From positions 1-40,655 of the forward strand of contig JAKURM010000009.1 in NCBI GenBank assembly GCA_022449945.1: a stretch of 40,655 nt of DNA, read 5' to 3'. Every line of letters starts with the position of its first letter. Within the stretch, counting starts at the first letter, position 1. The notes beneath the pieces were generated by a model, which did not search any database, was not told where the DNA came from, and saw only the letters and a program-made list of their open reading frames with translations. Source of the DNA: Candidatus Thalassarchaeum sp. (GTDB taxonomy: Archaea; Thermoplasmatota; Poseidoniia; Poseidoniales; Thalassarchaeaceae). Both the position numbers and the translations under genes were made by a program. Positions 4,856 to 12,116 of the stretch are shown one piece after another.

Positions 4856-5656
4856 GTGAAGCGCTCACTATCGAAGAATCCGAACATGCTTCGTACTATG
4901 ATTGGTACGGGTATGACCTTGATACTGCTACTATCCTATGCTGTCTACTCGAATACCGTTGATTCGGAGTACTACGGTTACACGACGAGCAACGAGTCGC
5001 TTGAGATGGATCTAAATGTTGAGGAGGAGGGCACTTCTCAATGGTACTACACAACTGACAATGCGATAACATGGGTCAACATTTCCGTAACTGGCGCTCC
5101 CTCGGATTCATTGCTCACAGTCGAGGCAGAAGGAACTAACTGGTCCCATTCTCCAAGTCTGGGCCTGGATGACGCAGCATACATCTGCAACGAGCCGGAG
5201 AGTGACTATTCTTCGATAATTGAGACATGCGAATACAGTCGGGTGCACACGATGGTACTGGATAACGGAACTGGCATTCTGAGAGGTAGGGTATCACTGG
5301 ATCTTCCGATTAGGGGGAAGGGTTACTTGGAGAGCGAAAATCAGGAAAATGCCGAGACTGAGGCTAGGGACCTCATTCAAAGAGAGTCTCAGACTGTCAC
5401 ATGGAAGATCAAGATTGAGTCGGAAGGAGAAATTGCTTCTAGCGAGGGTGTCGACGTTTCTGCATTAGCAGTTACTCACGAATTCGTCTCAATCGAGCAT
5501 TTCCAATTGGAGCCCGTGCAGGAAACTATCTACAGTATCGCTGCATTGGTTGGCTGCTTCTTTCTTGTCTTGGTAATCCCATTGATGATTTACTTCTCGG
5601 CCACTTTCAGAGAAAGGAGAGACGAGTCCCTACGGTCCACAATCGAAGAAGAGTAG
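4856..5656 (+). CDS. Bitopic membrane protein of unknown function
   Basis: I do not recognise this 266-residue protein. It has a basic N-terminus, a hydrophobic helix at about residues 14-31, a ~190-residue acidic extracytoplasmic region with many Asn-x-Ser/Thr sites and three cysteines, then a second helix at about 225-248 and a charged tail. The start is GTG; GAATAATC about 26 bp upstream could be a TATA box for a leaderless transcript. It stands alone between the divergent ribosomal operon and a convergent pqqD-like gene. The form suits an envelope protein; no catalytic motif is visible. Confidence 0.8.
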   Translation: MKRSLSKNPNMLRTMIGTGMTLILLLSYAVYSNTVDSEYYGYTTSNESLEMDLNVEEEGTSQWYYTTDNAITWVNISVTGAPSDSLLTVEAEGTNWSHSPSLGLDDAAYICNEPESDYSSIIETCEYSRVHTMVLDNGTGILRGRVSLDLPIRGKGYLESENQENAETEARDLIQRESQTVTWKIKIESEGEIASSEGVDVSALAVTHEFVSIEHFQLEPVQETIYSIAALVGCFFLVLVIPLMIYFSATFRERRDESLRSTIEEE

Positions 5657-5663
5657 ACAATGG

Positions 5664-5984
5664 CTATTCTGAAGGCCCTATGTCCCAGTCAACATGGCTA
5701 TTGCTGTCCAATATCCTGGCATACCCCAATTCAACAAAATTTCCAACCGAAGCAATTACCCTCTCGGCAACGGGTGCCATCTTCTCGGTAAACAATTGGT
5801 CCATCTCGATGATGATGCTAGCCAGGCTATTCTCACCATCCATCAGTAGCCACAGTTTCGAGTTCATCTCGTCCAGTGGCCTACTGACAGACATCGGAGC
5901 CCGGAGAAGACTTGCAATGTAAGATTCCAGCCGTCCCAGGCGTTTTTCTGAAATTATCACTACATAGCCGCTATCATCTACCAT
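5664..5984 (-). CDS. PqqD-like (RiPP recognition element fold) protein
   Basis: The 106 residues match the PqqD pattern: RPLDEMNSKLWLLMDGENS (residues 35-53), a helical region with the spacing seen in PqqD, then VELGYARI. PqqD proteins are winged-helix chaperones that bind leader peptides and present them to radical SAM or other modifying enzymes. Here no PqqA, PqqE or radical SAM gene is adjacent. The gene is third in a minus-strand unit after an FMN reductase and a micro-membrane protein, separated from the latter by 46 bp. The assignment rests on fold-level pattern, not catalytic residues. Confidence 0.65.
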   Translation of the reverse strand: MVDDSGYVVIISEKRLGRLESYIASLLRAPMSVSRPLDEMNSKLWLLMDGENSLASIIIEMDQLFTEKMAPVAERVIASVGNFVELGYARILDSNSHVDWDIGPSE

Positions 5985-6030
5985 CCATCTAACGGGGGCT
6001 CTGGTGGGAATTGACTCTGAAATCAGTAGA

Positions 6031-6210
6031 TCACATCCTCAGGATTATGGAAAATAGCCACAAGGACGATGCCATACCAACAATGGCCCAGGTTCTGACC
6101 ATGGTTACACTCGAATTGGAGTTAGAGCTCCACCATGTCATGAGTCCACAGAGAGACATCAGAGCCAGCGCGTTTGCCCCTTCGATGGGTAAGGATTCAG
6201 CCACTGTCAT
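6031..6210 (-). CDS. 59-residue two-helix membrane protein
   Basis: This small gene is read directly from the minus strand. It starts MTVAESLPIEGANALALM and ends WLFSIILRM. Two hydrophobic stretches (about residues 13-27 and 38-57) flank a Ser/Asn-rich loop, SSNSNSSV. Its ATG overlaps the stop of the upstream FMN reductase as ATGA, the strongest evidence that it is translated and coupled. I know no family for it. It may anchor or partner the neighbouring reductase and PqqD-like protein. The hydrophobic pattern and overlap are seen; the partnership is inference. Confidence 0.72.
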   Translation of the reverse strand: MTVAESLPIEGANALALMSLCGLMTWWSSNSNSSVTMVRTWAIVGMASSLWLFSIILRM

Positions 6211-6752
6211 CCCCTGAGCTTCTCTGTGCTATCAACCAGAGATTTAGCCATCGAACTCATCCTCTCGCGGAGCTCTTCGTCTAGTATCTCCCCATCTTCG
6301 TCGAATGCACTCTTCACATTAGGAACTGCTACTTGCTCGGGAGTGACCCACCCATGGATCCATCTCACTGCAATTCTCATATGATTGAGTGTGTTATTAC
6401 TGGCCTTCCCACCCAAGGTGCTCATCAATGAAAATACCTTACCCGATGTATGCTTGGAATATAGCCAGTCGAGGCTGTTCTTCATCACGCCACTCATTGT
6501 ACCATGGTATTCTGGGCTTGAAAGAACGAATGCATCGGCAGAAGTGGCCAATTCTTGGAATGCCTTGACGTTCTTGTCATCCCAACTGCCGTCTGCCCCG
6601 ACAAGCGGTAGAGGATTTGCTCCATGATCCCATACAATTGTATCAGCACCGAGACCCCCACATTCACCTAGAATAATCTCCAAAAGCCTGCCATTGGCTG
6701 AATCGAGCTCATAGCTTCCACATATTCCCATAATCAGAATTGGTTCGCCCAC
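6207..6752 (-). CDS. NADPH-dependent FMN reductase family protein
   Basis: The 181-residue flavodoxin-like protein has the family's flavin-binding block SPEYHGTMSGVMKNSLDWL (residues 79-97), followed by the LMSTLGGKAS segment. Relatives (SsuE, ChrR, ArsH type) reduce FMN, quinones or azo dyes with NAD(P)H. The N-terminal phosphate-binding loop reads GICGSYELDSANG, with fewer Ser/Arg residues than GSLRxxS types. The start is GTG. It heads a unit with a 59-residue membrane protein (ATGA overlap) and a PqqD-like gene. The substrate cannot be told. Confidence 0.85.
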   Translation of the reverse strand: MGEPILIMGICGSYELDSANGRLLEIILGECGGLGADTIVWDHGANPLPLVGADGSWDDKNVKAFQELATSADAFVLSSPEYHGTMSGVMKNSLDWLYSKHTSGKVFSLMSTLGGKASNNTLNHMRIAVRWIHGWVTPEQVAVPNVKSAFDEDGEILDEELRERMSSMAKSLVDSTEKLRG

Positions 6753-6839: not shown

Positions 6840-8024
6840 ATGGCAACTCACGAGGTAGCCGAGGCGCTGTCTGAGGCAAGGAAGATCGCTGAGGAGGGCC
6901 CCCCTTCAACCGCAATTGATCGTTACCGCTCAATATTGGAAACATCACCAGAAAGTGCCACAGCATGGTACTGTCTTGGTGTGCTATACTCTCAAACAGG
7001 AGACAGTGGATTGGCAATAGAGGCATTCGAAAACTCCGATAGGCTATTCCCAAACCACGGTGCAACGATTTCTAATCTTGCATTCCTGCTCAAATCCACC
7101 GATCCCATCAGGGCTAGGGAATACGCATTGTCCGCATTGGTGCAATATCCAGATGATACAAGGCTAAACGAGATTTCTCAGTCACCTGCAACGGATACCA
7201 AACAAAAGGAGCGTATTTTCATAGAATCTCGCCCTATCGTGCAAGCAATCGATATTCCGGATGCGTTAATCTCGGATTATTCCGGTTCTATGGAGGATGA
7301 GGCCCGCACACTCACCCAAACTGGTGACCACGCCGGTGCAGTCGCAATTTGGAAGGGGATTTTGTCTAACTCACCAAAATCACCAGAGGTCTGGCGCGGG
7401 CTCGCAGATGCATTGCTCGCTGCAGGATATCCCGACAGGTATGAGCAGTGTAATAGGCGGGCCGACTCACTTGATGATGAGCATAGGACGAGTCTAGAAG
7501 AACAGCAACCCGTCGACGAAATAGGCTCAATTAGTCTGATTGATGCGGTGGAGAACGTAAGGGAAGCCGCTGTTGATGTGGTAGAGGATAGAGGCGATAT
7601 TGACGAGGCTATCAGTTGGTTCAATATGGGTACAAACCTACTCAATGAAGGGAACAACGAAGAAGCACTGACAAGCTTCGAGAAAGCCATAGGGGGTTGC
7701 CCCAAGGATGAGACTGAGTTACGGATGAAGGCTCAGAATGGTAGAGGCAATGCTCTGTTCAATGCAGGAAGATATGCCGAAAGCGTGGTAGCATATCATG
7801 CAGCAATTGGGATGGATCCATCGAACGTCTCTGGTAGGACTCTTTTCAATATGGGCTCTTCCTATGCCGCAGTCGAGATGTACGACGATGCCATCAAGTG
7901 CTTCAATCAAGCCATCGGACGTGGAATGGATAAGTCAGAGCACGAACTATGCGAGAAGCAGATCAGCAGATGCCGACTACTGTCCAGAGAACAAGCAAAG
8001 AGGCAGGTACGCCCATCTAATTAG
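6840..8024 (+). CDS. Tetratricopeptide-repeat protein
   Basis: The 394 residues form soluble helical repeats with TPR consensus spacing: AWYCLGVLYSQTGDSGLAIEAF (from residue ~39), EVWRGLADALLAAG (~185), WFNMGTNLLNEGNNEEALTSFEKAI (~262), NGRGNALFNAGRYAESVVAYHAAI and FNMGSSYAAVEMYDDAIKCFNQAI. An acidic linker splits an N-terminal set from a C-terminal set. TPRs are protein-interaction scaffolds, and no enzyme domain or signal peptide is visible. The ATG is probably close to the transcription start. Its stop overlaps the stop of the convergent molybdoenzyme gene by 8 bp. Confidence 0.9.
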   Translation: MATHEVAEALSEARKIAEEGPPSTAIDRYRSILETSPESATAWYCLGVLYSQTGDSGLAIEAFENSDRLFPNHGATISNLAFLLKSTDPIRAREYALSALVQYPDDTRLNEISQSPATDTKQKERIFIESRPIVQAIDIPDALISDYSGSMEDEARTLTQTGDHAGAVAIWKGILSNSPKSPEVWRGLADALLAAGYPDRYEQCNRRADSLDDEHRTSLEEQQPVDEIGSISLIDAVENVREAAVDVVEDRGDIDEAISWFNMGTNLLNEGNNEEALTSFEKAIGGCPKDETELRMKAQNGRGNALFNAGRYAESVVAYHAAIGMDPSNVSGRTLFNMGSSYAAVEMYDDAIKCFNQAIGRGMDKSEHELCEKQISRCRLLSREQAKRQVRPSN

Positions 8025-10320
8025 CAGTGGAAATAGATACTAGAACGGACTTGCTAGTAGGGGTGTTGCTCATATCGGCCACGCTCTCTAGCGGTATCAG
8101 TTCATTCGACTCGGGGAAGTACGTAGCAACGTTGCCGGGAGGAATATTGTACGGGACTAGGTACCATCTCTCGGAAGTAATTACTTTGCCATCGTAGTGA
8201 GATGAGACATTGACTGTTTGCAACTCCTGCCAACCGTTTTCTTCCATGTCTAACTCGTTAACAAAAACAACGCGTCTTCCTCCCTTGACTCCCCTATACC
8301 TGTCATCCAATCCGTAGATGGTGGTGTTGTACTGGTCATGAGATCTTATGGACATCATTACGAATTTGCCAGCATCAGCAGTTATTGACGACATGGGGTT
8401 GGAAATGAAATTTGCTTTCCCAGTAGGGGTATCGAATTTCCTCGAATCCCTAGGGGAATTGGGCAGGTAGAAACCGCCCCTATTCCTTGAACGCTCATTG
8501 TATGAATCAAAACCGGGAATTACAGATTCTATCTCCCTCCTGATATTATCGTAGTCATTTACCAACTCTAACCATGGAATATCCATATGTATGCCTGATT
8601 GATTGAGCTTGCTACCGATCGATGCCACTATCGCTGGCTCTGACATTAGCATGTCGCTCGCTGGTCTTGCATTGCCAACTGACATATGCACAACCCCCAT
8701 TGAGTTCTCAACGGTAACAAACTGGTCGCCAATGCCCGTGGAGTCTCTCTCAGTTCTGCCCAAGCATGGGAGAATTAGAGCCGACTTTCCAGTAATCAGG
8801 TGAGATCTGTTGGGTTTGGTAGAGATCTGAACCGTGAGTTCGCAATTCTGTAGTGCGCTAGCCGTTGCTCTTGTATCGGACATTGCGGAGAGGAAATTAC
8901 CCCCCATAGACATGAAAACGTTGGATTGCCCACTTGACATCCTCCTAACAGCTTCAACTGCATCACAACCCGGTATCCTTGGTGCCTCTATGCCAAAACG
9001 GTCGTCCAATGCATCGAGAAATGTAGCACTGGGGTGGTGATTGATTCCTACGGTCCTATCTCCTTGGACATTGGAATGTCCCCGAACTGGACATAGGCCT
9101 GCACCACTCCGGCCAATATGACCACCAAGAAGGGAAACGTTTGCAATCTCCTGAATTGTCTGGACAGCGTTCTTGTGCTGAGTCAGACCCATTGCCCAGC
9201 AAACAATCATTGATTTACTCTGAGCAATCTTATTTCCAATACGCTCAATGACTTCACGAGCCACCCCTGATAGGGATTCGACATCTCCCCATTCAGTATT
9301 TTGCACTAATTCTGAGTAATCATCAAAGCCATCAGTATGGTCCTCTATGAATTCAATATCGCAAGCATCCTGGGATATAATGGTCTTCGCGAACCCCCTG
9401 AAAAGGGCCATGTCACCGTTTATTCGTAGATTGACATGTTCGTCAGCGATTTTTGTCCCAGAACCTAGAACTTCTAGTGGATTCTGGGGGTGCTTGAATC
9501 TACCCATTCCTGCTTCCTCAAGGGGATTAATGCTCACGACTGAGGAGCCGTTCTTCTTCGCGTCTCTAAGTGCAGTAAGCATTCTAGGGTGGTTTGTCCC
9601 AGGATTCTGCCCCACGATCAATATCAGATCTGAATGAATGAAGTCATCTAGTGTGACAGTGCCCTTCCCTATTCCGATTGACTGGGTCAACGCATGGCCT
9701 GACGACTCATGACACATATTCGAACAGTCTGGAAGGTTGTTAGTTCCCAGCGTTCTGGCTAATAGTTGCCAAAGAAATGCCGCTTCATTGCTAGTTCGGC
9801 CCGATGTGTAAAAAATGGCCTGATCAGGGTCCGATAAGACTGCAAGATTATCTGCAATCATTTCGAATGCATCGTCCCATGAAATCTCTTCATAGTGTTC
9901 GGAGTTCTGATTTAGAACCAATGGATGGGTTATGCGACCCTGCTCGTTAAGCCAAAAGTCAGATTTCCTTGATAGTTCAGAAACCGACCACTTCTTCCAG
10001 AAATCTGGTCCAGCCTTCCTCTTTGTAGCCTCATCCGCTACTGCCTTTGCACCGTTCTCACAGAATTCGGCAAATGTTCTGTGTCCGTCTGGATCTGGCC
10101 ATGCACAGCCGGGACAGTCGAAGCCGTCGAATTTGTTCACTTTGCTCAGGTTAGAAATTGATCTTATTGCGCCCATTTTACGAATACCGTGCTTTGCAGT
10201 AGAGATTATTGCAGGCATTCCTGCAGCCACAACTCTTGGTTTTGAGGTCCTTGGAGCTGAATCCTCGAAGGGGACTGGTGCACTGACGTCACGGACCACG
10301 GTCGCTGATGGAGTTAGCAT
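8017..10320 (-). CDS. Formate-dehydrogenase-like molybdopterin oxidoreductase (FdhF/YdeP-like)
   Basis: The 767-residue protein belongs to the DMSO-reductase superfamily subgroup known as FdhF-like or YdeP-like (oxidoreductase alpha, molybdopterin). The subgroup hallmark GFDCPGCAWPDPDGHRT is present, with Cys69, Cys72 and Cys87; a fourth N-terminal cluster cysteine is not seen. MCHESS places Cys203 at the molybdenum-ligand position occupied by selenocysteine in E. coli FdhH, followed by His204. Later segments (GQNPGTNHPRM, GGHIGRSGAGLCPVRGHSNVQG, SIRSHDQYNT) bind the bis-guanine-dinucleotide cofactor. FdhD, which sulfurates the cofactor, is encoded 1 kb away, supporting formate dehydrogenase-like chemistry. 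The substrate of this subgroup is not established. Confidence 0.92.
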   Translation of the reverse strand: MLTPSATVVRDVSAPVPFEDSAPRTSKPRVVAAGMPAIISTAKHGIRKMGAIRSISNLSKVNKFDGFDCPGCAWPDPDGHRTFAEFCENGAKAVADEATKRKAGPDFWKKWSVSELSRKSDFWLNEQGRITHPLVLNQNSEHYEEISWDDAFEMIADNLAVLSDPDQAIFYTSGRTSNEAAFLWQLLARTLGTNNLPDCSNMCHESSGHALTQSIGIGKGTVTLDDFIHSDLILIVGQNPGTNHPRMLTALRDAKKNGSSVVSINPLEEAGMGRFKHPQNPLEVLGSGTKIADEHVNLRINGDMALFRGFAKTIISQDACDIEFIEDHTDGFDDYSELVQNTEWGDVESLSGVAREVIERIGNKIAQSKSMIVCWAMGLTQHKNAVQTIQEIANVSLLGGHIGRSGAGLCPVRGHSNVQGDRTVGINHHPSATFLDALDDRFGIEAPRIPGCDAVEAVRRMSSGQSNVFMSMGGNFLSAMSDTRATASALQNCELTVQISTKPNRSHLITGKSALILPCLGRTERDSTGIGDQFVTVENSMGVVHMSVGNARPASDMLMSEPAIVASIGSKLNQSGIHMDIPWLELVNDYDNIRREIESVIPGFDSYNERSRNRGGFYLPNSPRDSRKFDTPTGKANFISNPMSSITADAGKFVMMSIRSHDQYNTTIYGLDDRYRGVKGGRRVVFVNELDMEENGWQELQTVNVSSHYDGKVITSERWYLVPYNIPPGNVATYFPESNELIPLESVADMSNTPTSKSVLVSISTAN

Positions 10321-10342
10321 TCATTTCAATTGCTCCATTCAT

Positions 10343-11326
10343 ATGGCTTATCCCTGTCTTCCACTACGGGACATTGTGGACCCGGGTTTTCATGTAGTAA
10401 CTGGTGCATTCGGCTATTCGGGTAGGTGGATAGCCAAGGAGCTCCTAGCAAGGGGCCATCGAGTTAGGACGTTAACAAACGCCATTGGAAGGGATGATCC
10501 ATTCGAAGGAGAGGTCGATGTCCACACTGTCGATTTCAACAATCATTCTGCTTTGGTCCATTCATTGAATGGCGCCGATGTATTGTATAACACATACTGG
10601 GTTAGATACAAGGACCCGAATGGTGGGTATGCACATGATCTAGCAGTTGACAATATACGGAAGCTGCTTGCCGCAGCAAAGGACGCGGGGGTGGGTCGGG
10701 TAGTCCACTTTTCTGTTGCACACCCATCAAAGGCACCTGATTGGTCATATTTCAGAGGCAAGGTCGAGGTCGAAGAGATTCTGAAGTCATCAGGCCTATC
10801 ATACGCAATACTACGGCCCACGGTCTTCTTTGGTGGTGAAAGAGACGTTCTCATAAACAACATGGCTTGGCTTATTCGCAAGTTTCCTGTGTTTGGCCTT
10901 TTTGGATTGGGGAGGTATCCAATTCAACCAGTCCACATTAGTGATGTTGCTAGGATTTCTGCAGAACAGGGTTGTAATGATGAGAACGTAGTGATTGATG
11001 TTGCCGGTCCCGAGAAATATGAGTATCGGCAATATGTAAGATTGATCGCAAAGTCGATGGGTGTTCGAAGGTTAGTTATGCCTGTACCACCAACAGTTGC
11101 TTGGTTAGTAGGACGTTTAGTAGGCGTTTTCTTGGACGATCGTGTAATAACGCGTGCTGAAATTAAGGGGCTGATGCAGGGTCTTATGGCGACCGACGAA
11201 CCGCCGGTTGGTCGAATCAGCTTTGCTGATTGGATAGATGAAAATGGCCATAGTCTGGGAAAAAGATACCAGAACGACATGAAGGAACGCCAGTACAAGG
11301 ACCCTACAGTGAATTCTAATGGTTAA
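10343..11326 (+). CDS. SDR-family NAD(P)-binding protein (NmrA/NDUFA9-like)
   Basis: The 327-residue protein is an extended short-chain dehydrogenase-like Rossmann protein. GAFGYSGR (residues 21-28) is the GxxGxxG dinucleotide loop, and YFRGK holds a YxxxK pair after a VVHFSVAHPS strand. ILRPTVFFGG and QPVHISDVA are typical of the NmrA / NDUFA9-like atypical group, which often bind NAD(P) without classical catalysis. The ATG at 10343 is the first start outside the divergent molybdoenzyme gene; a GTG at 10376 is an alternative closer to the Rossmann strand. It is convergent with fdhD, overlapping 11 bp. The substrate is unknown. Confidence 0.85.
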   Translation: MAYPCLPLRDIVDPGFHVVTGAFGYSGRWIAKELLARGHRVRTLTNAIGRDDPFEGEVDVHTVDFNNHSALVHSLNGADVLYNTYWVRYKDPNGGYAHDLAVDNIRKLLAAAKDAGVGRVVHFSVAHPSKAPDWSYFRGKVEVEEILKSSGLSYAILRPTVFFGGERDVLINNMAWLIRKFPVFGLFGLGRYPIQPVHISDVARISAEQGCNDENVVIDVAGPEKYEYRQYVRLIAKSMGVRRLVMPVPPTVAWLVGRLVGVFLDDRVITRAEIKGLMQGLMATDEPPVGRISFADWIDENGHSLGKRYQNDMKERQYKDPTVNSNG

Positions 11327-12116
11327 CCCTACGAACACCACTGTAAACGGTCAATGAATCGCTTCTTGCGAAGCATCCCAATGTGAGCCCATGCTCCTTG
11401 GCAAGATCGACAGCTAGCGTACTCGGCCCCCCAATAGAAATCATGATTGGAAACCCGATCCTTAGGCATTTTTGCACGAGTTCAAACGACGCACGACCGG
11501 AAACGAATAGCACCTCGGATTGTGGAGTATTTCCATCCGAAACATAAGACCCAACCAACTTGTCCATTGCATTGTGCCTGCCCACGTCTTCGAATATTCT
11601 CAATATTTCAAATTCGGAATTGAAGCTTGCGCATGCATGAGAACCCCCGGTTCGCGAGAATAGAATTTGACTTGTCTTCATTTCTTCCAAGCATTTTCCT
11701 ATTCCTTCAATAGTGACTCTTGTGTTTTCATCAAGCTCGGGACCATGAATATGCTCAGTGTCATCTATGGTGCTACGACCACATATCCCACATGCGGATG
11801 TCACAGTGCCAGATCTACAGTGAATATTCGGGTCGAATGCAGAATCTTCACCCAATAATGCCGTGATTCCATCAGAGTCTTCATCTATGGAGATGATATC
11901 ATCCATGGAATTGATTATTCCCTCCGAGTATAGGAAGCCAATTACAAGGCTCCTGTCTTCTCCCTTCGATCGCATGGTGACTCCAATATTCTGTGTTCCG
12001 TGCTCATTTGTTGCAACAGAAATTGAGAGCCCCTCCTCGCTTGTGACATTGTCCTGCTCCCTGGTTATGCCCGAGACCCCCACCTTCGCGATATCCCTTG
12101 TTTCCAATCCATCCAC
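11316..12116 (-). CDS. fdhD: Formate dehydrogenase accessory sulfurtransferase FdhD
   Basis: FdhD passes sulfur from a cysteine desulfurase to the molybdenum cofactor before it enters formate dehydrogenase. SACGICGRS gives the functional CxxC (Cys109, Cys112). FEDVGRHNAMDKL and SGRASFELVQKC are the other family signatures. The length, 266 residues, is normal. The GTG start lies about 25 bp from ACATATC on the minus strand, suggesting a leaderless transcript. Its likely client is the FdhF-like enzyme at 8017-10320, also minus-strand, with an unrelated plus-strand SDR gene between. Confidence 0.95.
   Translation of the reverse strand: MDGLETRDIAKVGVSGITREQDNVTSEEGLSISVATNEHGTQNIGVTMRSKGEDRSLVIGFLYSEGIINSMDDIISIDEDSDGITALLGEDSAFDPNIHCRSGTVTSACGICGRSTIDDTEHIHGPELDENTRVTIEGIGKCLEEMKTSQILFSRTGGSHACASFNSEFEILRIFEDVGRHNAMDKLVGSYVSDGNTPQSEVLFVSGRASFELVQKCLRIGFPIMISIGGPSTLAVDLAKEHGLTLGCFARSDSLTVYSGVRRVNH

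Follow-up and report, generated by a model that had tools for sequence, protein, structure and literature searches.

A membrane hairpin and PqqD-like protein pair that recurs across Thermoplasmatota and co-varies with an OPT-type transporter

In this work, we analyzed a 40,655-nucleotide stretch of Candidatus Thalassarchaeum sp. (GenBank assembly GCA_022449945.1, contig JAKURM010000009.1, positions 1 to 40,655; hereafter the window), and found that the genes for a 59-residue membrane hairpin (TM59) and for a PqqD-like protein constitute a two-gene module recurring across marine group II (MGII) and other Thermoplasmatota. The presence or absence of the PqqD-like gene follows that of an OPT oligopeptide transporter, represented in the window's genome by a divergent type (OPT2) encoded at another locus. 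Since the pair and this unlinked transporter gene are lost together, the pair probably acts together with the transporter; we assign a probability of about 0.5 to the reading in which it does so with the hairpin tethering an RRE domain that grips a peptide, thereby assembling or gating OPT2.

The original prediction singled out three minus-strand ORFs as one unit. All three are present (Table 1) and evolve as genes: relative to the closest relative (G023), dN/dS was ~0.03 for the C-terminal part of the FMN reductase, 0.29 for TM59 and 0.16 for the PqqD-like gene, and the substitution patterns thus indicate purifying selection on each of them. The ATGA overlap proposed to couple the FMN reductase gene to the 59-residue gene is real (6207-6210), and the two genes are tightly coupled. 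Nearby, the window also carries a molybdopterin oxidoreductase gene (8017-10320) and an FdhD/NarQ-type gene (11316-12116); this formate-dehydrogenase-like set (8017-12116) is missing at this locus in some relatives.

Table 1. Features of the TM59-PqqD locus in the window.
Feature	Position	Strand	Basis or remark
NADPH-dependent FMN reductase family protein (ArsH/YhdA-like)	6207..6752	-	PF03358, E 6.6e-28
TM59, 59-aa two-helix membrane hairpin protein	6031..6210	-	ORF, AF2, profile homologues across Thermoplasmatota
PqqD-like (RRE-fold) protein, 120 aa	5664..6026	-	Inferred CTG start at 6026; AF2 and Foldseek
GGATGTGATC, ribosome-binding-like	6029..6038	-	Overlaps the TM59 stop and precedes the CTG start; aligned with G023 and G010
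M266, membrane protein conserved in MGII, syntenic flank	4856..5656	+	Convergent with the PqqD-like gene
TPR protein, syntenic flank	6840..8024	+	Divergent from the FMN reductase gene

The PqqD-like gene had been delimited as an ORF at 5664-5984; the gene is real, but the ATG start at 5984 is wrong, as it cuts off a conserved segment, PTRxPVxW, that lies upstream in open reading frame and contains the PxR....W motif, invariant in the PqqD-like family. Because of this conserved N-terminal segment, the open frame, and the TTG aligned at the homologous codon in the two closest relatives (G023 and G010), the start is placed upstream, probably at the CTG at 6026 (6024-6026), 4 nt past the end of the TM59 gene. 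The sequence GGATGTGATC preceding it closely resembles the archaeal Shine-Dalgarno GGAGGTGATC. With a CTG start, gene callers restricted to ATG, GTG and TTG would shorten the protein by 14 residues.

By predicted fold and by its homologues, the window's protein belongs to the broad PqqD-like family. Its sequence, like that of TM59, gave no Pfam match; it hit NCBIfam TIGR03859 (PqqD) at E 0.01, and a search of its own genome with PF05402 gave no match because this member is divergent; the same profile was matched by 16 of 22 homologues (best 1e-6), and relatives in other families exceed its cut-off. A family-profile sequence search of the PDB returned nothing significant, PqqD reaching only E 0.92. 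The AF2 model, built from 22 homologues (pLDDT 89.6, pTM 0.79), found its best Foldseek matches in the PDB in TruD, TbiB1 and lasso B1 (probability 0.99-1.00), with TM (target) scores of 0.72-0.76 for the B1 proteins and PqqD itself (3g2b) lower down at 0.80 probability. The Foldseek E-values were weak (best 0.011, none reaching 0.001), as expected for so small a domain, and the identity of the matches was consistent. The predicted model therefore matches RRE structures, and the PqqD fold originally proposed is supported. As in other PqqD/RRE proteins (PF05402, TIGR03859), the fold is shared in prediction and family members match PF05402; unlike them, the window's protein carries extra N-terminal strands and a helix, has a membrane hairpin as partner, and occurs in a system without PqqA/PqqE, SPASM radical SAM, YcaO or a precursor peptide.

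TM59 had been described as a two-helix membrane protein, in agreement with the helices predicted by AF2 at residues 9-31 and 35-58 (pLDDT 78). Across the family, most basic residues lie in the inter-helix loop and the ends are mostly acidic, a distribution that, by the positive-inside rule, probably places the loop in the cytoplasm. The guess that this small protein may serve as an anchor is supported, the anchoring itself being an inference. About 10 relatives lack TM59 yet keep the PqqD-like gene. Several members of the window's genus show this pattern, four of them also keeping OPT2; thus, the hairpin is dispensable.

The PqqD-like protein was found in 51, and the window's FMN reductase in 47, of 60 relatives searched, and gene order was read over 100 loci. 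Within the window's family, the order TPR / FMN > TM59 > PqqD / M266 is conserved, as anticipated for the trio; outside that family the trio is not. In Poseidoniaceae, the order is M266 > large surface protein > TM59 > PqqD, with the FMN reductase, SUMF1-like and ArsC-family genes on the opposite strand, and a third group carries a different, unrelated FMN reductase together with a HEAT protein. The sole constant among these arrangements is TM59 > PqqD, the gap between the TM59 stop and the first PqqD start having a median of 3.5 nt and being at most 20 nt in 87 of 90 syntenic cases with both genes. Their adjacency survives inversions, and also differing neighbours in other Thermoplasmatota families. 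A profile search detected the PqqD-like family throughout the phylum beyond Poseidoniales, where a two-helix ORF of 55-87 aa lies directly upstream of 12 of 18 strong PqqD-like genes, vs 8 of 245 control genes; profile comparison shows homology between these upstream hairpins and TM59 (hhalign 96%, E 2e-9). The FMN reductase being separable in several lineages, the natural unit is TM59 plus the PqqD-like gene rather than the trio.

Several further features of these loci were recorded. In half of the pairs (45/90), the two genes share a reading frame interrupted by one stop codon, and read-through there would yield a fusion of the hairpin with the RRE domain; we draw no conclusion from this, about a third being expected by chance at such short gaps and the genomes being related. 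The pair adjoins a large CARDB-containing surface protein in many MGII genomes, and neither this protein nor M266 was retained as a candidate client, the two being neighbours only in MGII and lacking at the further Thermoplasmatota loci that were read. In a family of the same class (f3; L203, L204, L205 and L206), the pair lies beside another gene, which seems to be of the diphthamide synthase (Dph2) type. In two other Thermoplasmatota loci (L200:5013-6353 and L196:84-1437), a PqqD-like gene is directly 3' of a PyrK-like flavoprotein gene; in the former the two overlap by 4 nt, and a small zinc-ribbon gene comes next.

The FMN reductase accompanies the pair in particular lineages only and is not part of the core. 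Besides its opposite strand in Poseidoniaceae and its replacement in the third group, it is retained by genus g10 after loss of the pair, and genus g4 lacks it and is reported as still having the pair, yet g4 is also listed among the pair-loss genera; its candidacy as a core partner was rejected on these patterns of strand, replacement and retention. ArsH and the azoreductase YhdA (PF03358) are among its nearest proteins by sequence, but an ArsH identity was discarded, the score of 81 bits being below the NCBIfam TIGR02690 cut-off of 292.25; unlike ArsH and YhdA, this reductase sits beside ArsC-family and SUMF1-like genes in Poseidoniaceae. There (L072-L080, e.g., L074:6141-7879), the reductase and the SUMF1/FGE-like and ArsC-family genes are convergent with the PqqD-like gene and may constitute a cluster of their own, of redox or arsenic type, whose SUMF1/FGE-like protein, read by eye, seems to be without the usual active-site cysteines.

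The pair and the transporter are linked genetically. In the window's genome there is one OPT gene, of the divergent OPT2 type (contig G000:C55), which scores below the NCBIfam cut-offs and is not adjacent to the pair; in Poseidoniales, OPT2 does not lie beside it. A separate sister clade is formed by the lower-scoring PqqD-like genes found in other Thermoplasmatota and on haloarchaeal plasmids; most of these adjoin a gene for an OPT oligopeptide transporter (PF03169, E 2e-75 for L208), with a 4-nt overlap in 2 of 3 haloarchaeal plasmids. Furthermore, at two loci (L194 and L197) the TM59-PqqD pair itself is divergently placed beside an OPT gene. The closest known arrangement is this archaeal operon of OPT and a 'PqqD family protein' (e.g., Halobacterium salinarum, Halorientalis plasmids), where a related PqqD-like protein is likewise tied genetically to OPT; there, however, PqqD is directly 3' of OPT, whereas the window's gene follows TM59 and the divergent OPT2 is at another locus. 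Our search of the literature on PqqD with marine group II, Thermoplasmatota and OPT/oligopeptide transporters found no description of the pair or of the OPT-PqqD operon.

Among genomes of the window's family that lie outside its genus, OPT was detected in 19 of the 22 that have the PqqD-like gene vs none of 10 loss genomes, i.e., those in which that gene is missing with the locus resolved, from three genera (Fisher 4.4e-6, uncorrected for relatedness). On the flanking-gene tree, parsimony requires three changes, only two of them imposed by branches with strong support. Outside Poseidoniales, an OPT gene was present in 25/25 genomes with a TM-type PqqD vs 12/42 without PqqD. The PqqD-like-positive genomes with no detectable OPT are G029, G182 and G309 outside the window's own genus, along with several low-completeness members of that genus; in turn, five genomes have OPT and no detected PqqD-like gene (G149, G302, G033, G028 and G053), their PqqD loci being unresolved.

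Where the genes are missing, the sites were read directly. At the PqqD site, M266 abuts the TPR gene in g4; in g10, M266 and the FMN reductase gene are contiguous and followed by the TPR gene where the contig reaches; and one g18 genome has other ORFs at this position. OPT2, located between EamA and eIF5A in genomes with the pair, is missing from six loss genomes read across, in which EamA abuts eIF5A (G174, G293, G030 and G304 of g4; G036 of g10; G275 of g18). The neighbouring genes at the two loci (M266, S19e, TPR, EamA, SurE, SRP54 and eIF5A) are retained where TM59, the PqqD-like gene and OPT2 are missing, and deletion, rather than a gap in the assembly, seems to explain the losses. In G275, the SRP54 gene seems split in two with a gap (L284, G275:C5:33186-34852), perhaps an assembly error or an insertion.

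In the mechanism that we favour, TM59 would be a hairpin in the membrane whose basic loop probably faces the cytoplasm, and the cytosolic RRE domain, translated immediately afterwards, would most likely be held at the membrane by this hairpin. There, in presumed physical contact with OPT2, the RRE groove could grip a peptide strand, supplied by OPT2 itself through its N-terminal cytosolic tail or by a peptide being handled, and in this manner promote the assembly or gating of the transporter. The tail preceding the first membrane helix of OPT2 is strongly conserved (GLxxIExGTLxxxDxxMYxNLNTGxLEQYLEEKN) and is a natural candidate ligand, the transported peptide being the alternative. The more general proposal, that an archaeal RRE domain, tethered to the membrane, serves an OPT-type transporter as an accessory subunit by gripping a conserved cytosolic tail or peptide cargo, is advanced tentatively.

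Various other explanations have to be weighed against this one. The pair might be a membrane-anchored RRE adaptor for another client, such as the tails of secreted or membrane proteins, with the co-loss of OPT2 reflecting streamlining or an indirect pathway link, as lineages without both may simply be reduced. The unlinked position of OPT2 and the pair in Poseidoniales, and the surface protein beside the pair in many MGII genomes, are in line with such a role; we consider it somewhat unlikely, given that the neighbours at both loci persist while TM59, the PqqD-like gene and OPT2 are missing, and that the sister clade has OPT-PqqD operons. Synteny without any joint function is a further explanation, since MGII genomes widely keep gene order around S19e/L31e/L39e, and therefore adjacency to the FMN reductase, M266 and TPR genes needs no function. 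For TM59 and the PqqD-like gene it is quite improbable, as these remain together through inversions and beside different neighbours in other Thermoplasmatota, and are missing together from the empty sites. The PqqD fold is winged-helix-like, and a membrane-tethered regulator of OPT2 or other genes, if lost with its target, would leave the same profile; this we hold to be very unlikely, since family members mostly carry a negative net charge (-12 to +2), unlike most DNA-binding domains, and the best structural matches are peptide-binding RREs.

The original prediction suggested a flavin-dependent, RiPP-like module in which the FMN reductase and the RRE protein would act at the membrane to modify a peptide, TM59 or another. 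In its favour are the adjacent, co-oriented genes of the window's family, the PqqD-like gene following a PyrK-like flavoprotein gene in two other lineages (L196 and L200), and the usual role of RRE domains, which is to present precursor peptides (PMC12710340). Apart from the behaviour of the FMN reductase described above (strand, replacement, and its fate in g10 and g4), this proposal meets with the lack of SPASM and YcaO, the enzyme classes covered by our search, each absent from all 21 relatives (0/21), near-complete ones included, while the controls matched; a RiPP or peptide-antibiotic pathway thus appears unlikely for the pair. No precursor peptide with leader and core was seen in the locus; the unit has a single small ORF, TM59, which is itself without separable leader and core and is missing from some genomes that keep the FMN reductase and PqqD. 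Flavin-dependent peptide modification is consequently not supported and is held to be highly improbable, and the transporter-associated role of the pair is preferred.

Until now, the RRE domain has been encountered chiefly in pathways for peptide natural products; the usual annotation of PqqD-fold proteins is as chaperones of peptide modification, and genome-mining tools count them as RiPP markers. A broad archaeal PqqD branch that co-varies with peptide transporters, and in which no modification enzyme was found, would remove false RiPP calls and would give the PqqD fold a second job. Marine group II archaea are abundant in surface oceans and are thought to live on proteins and peptides, and the pair constitutes a testable partner for one of their transporters; owing to the co-loss at two unlinked loci, its link with OPT2 is directly testable.
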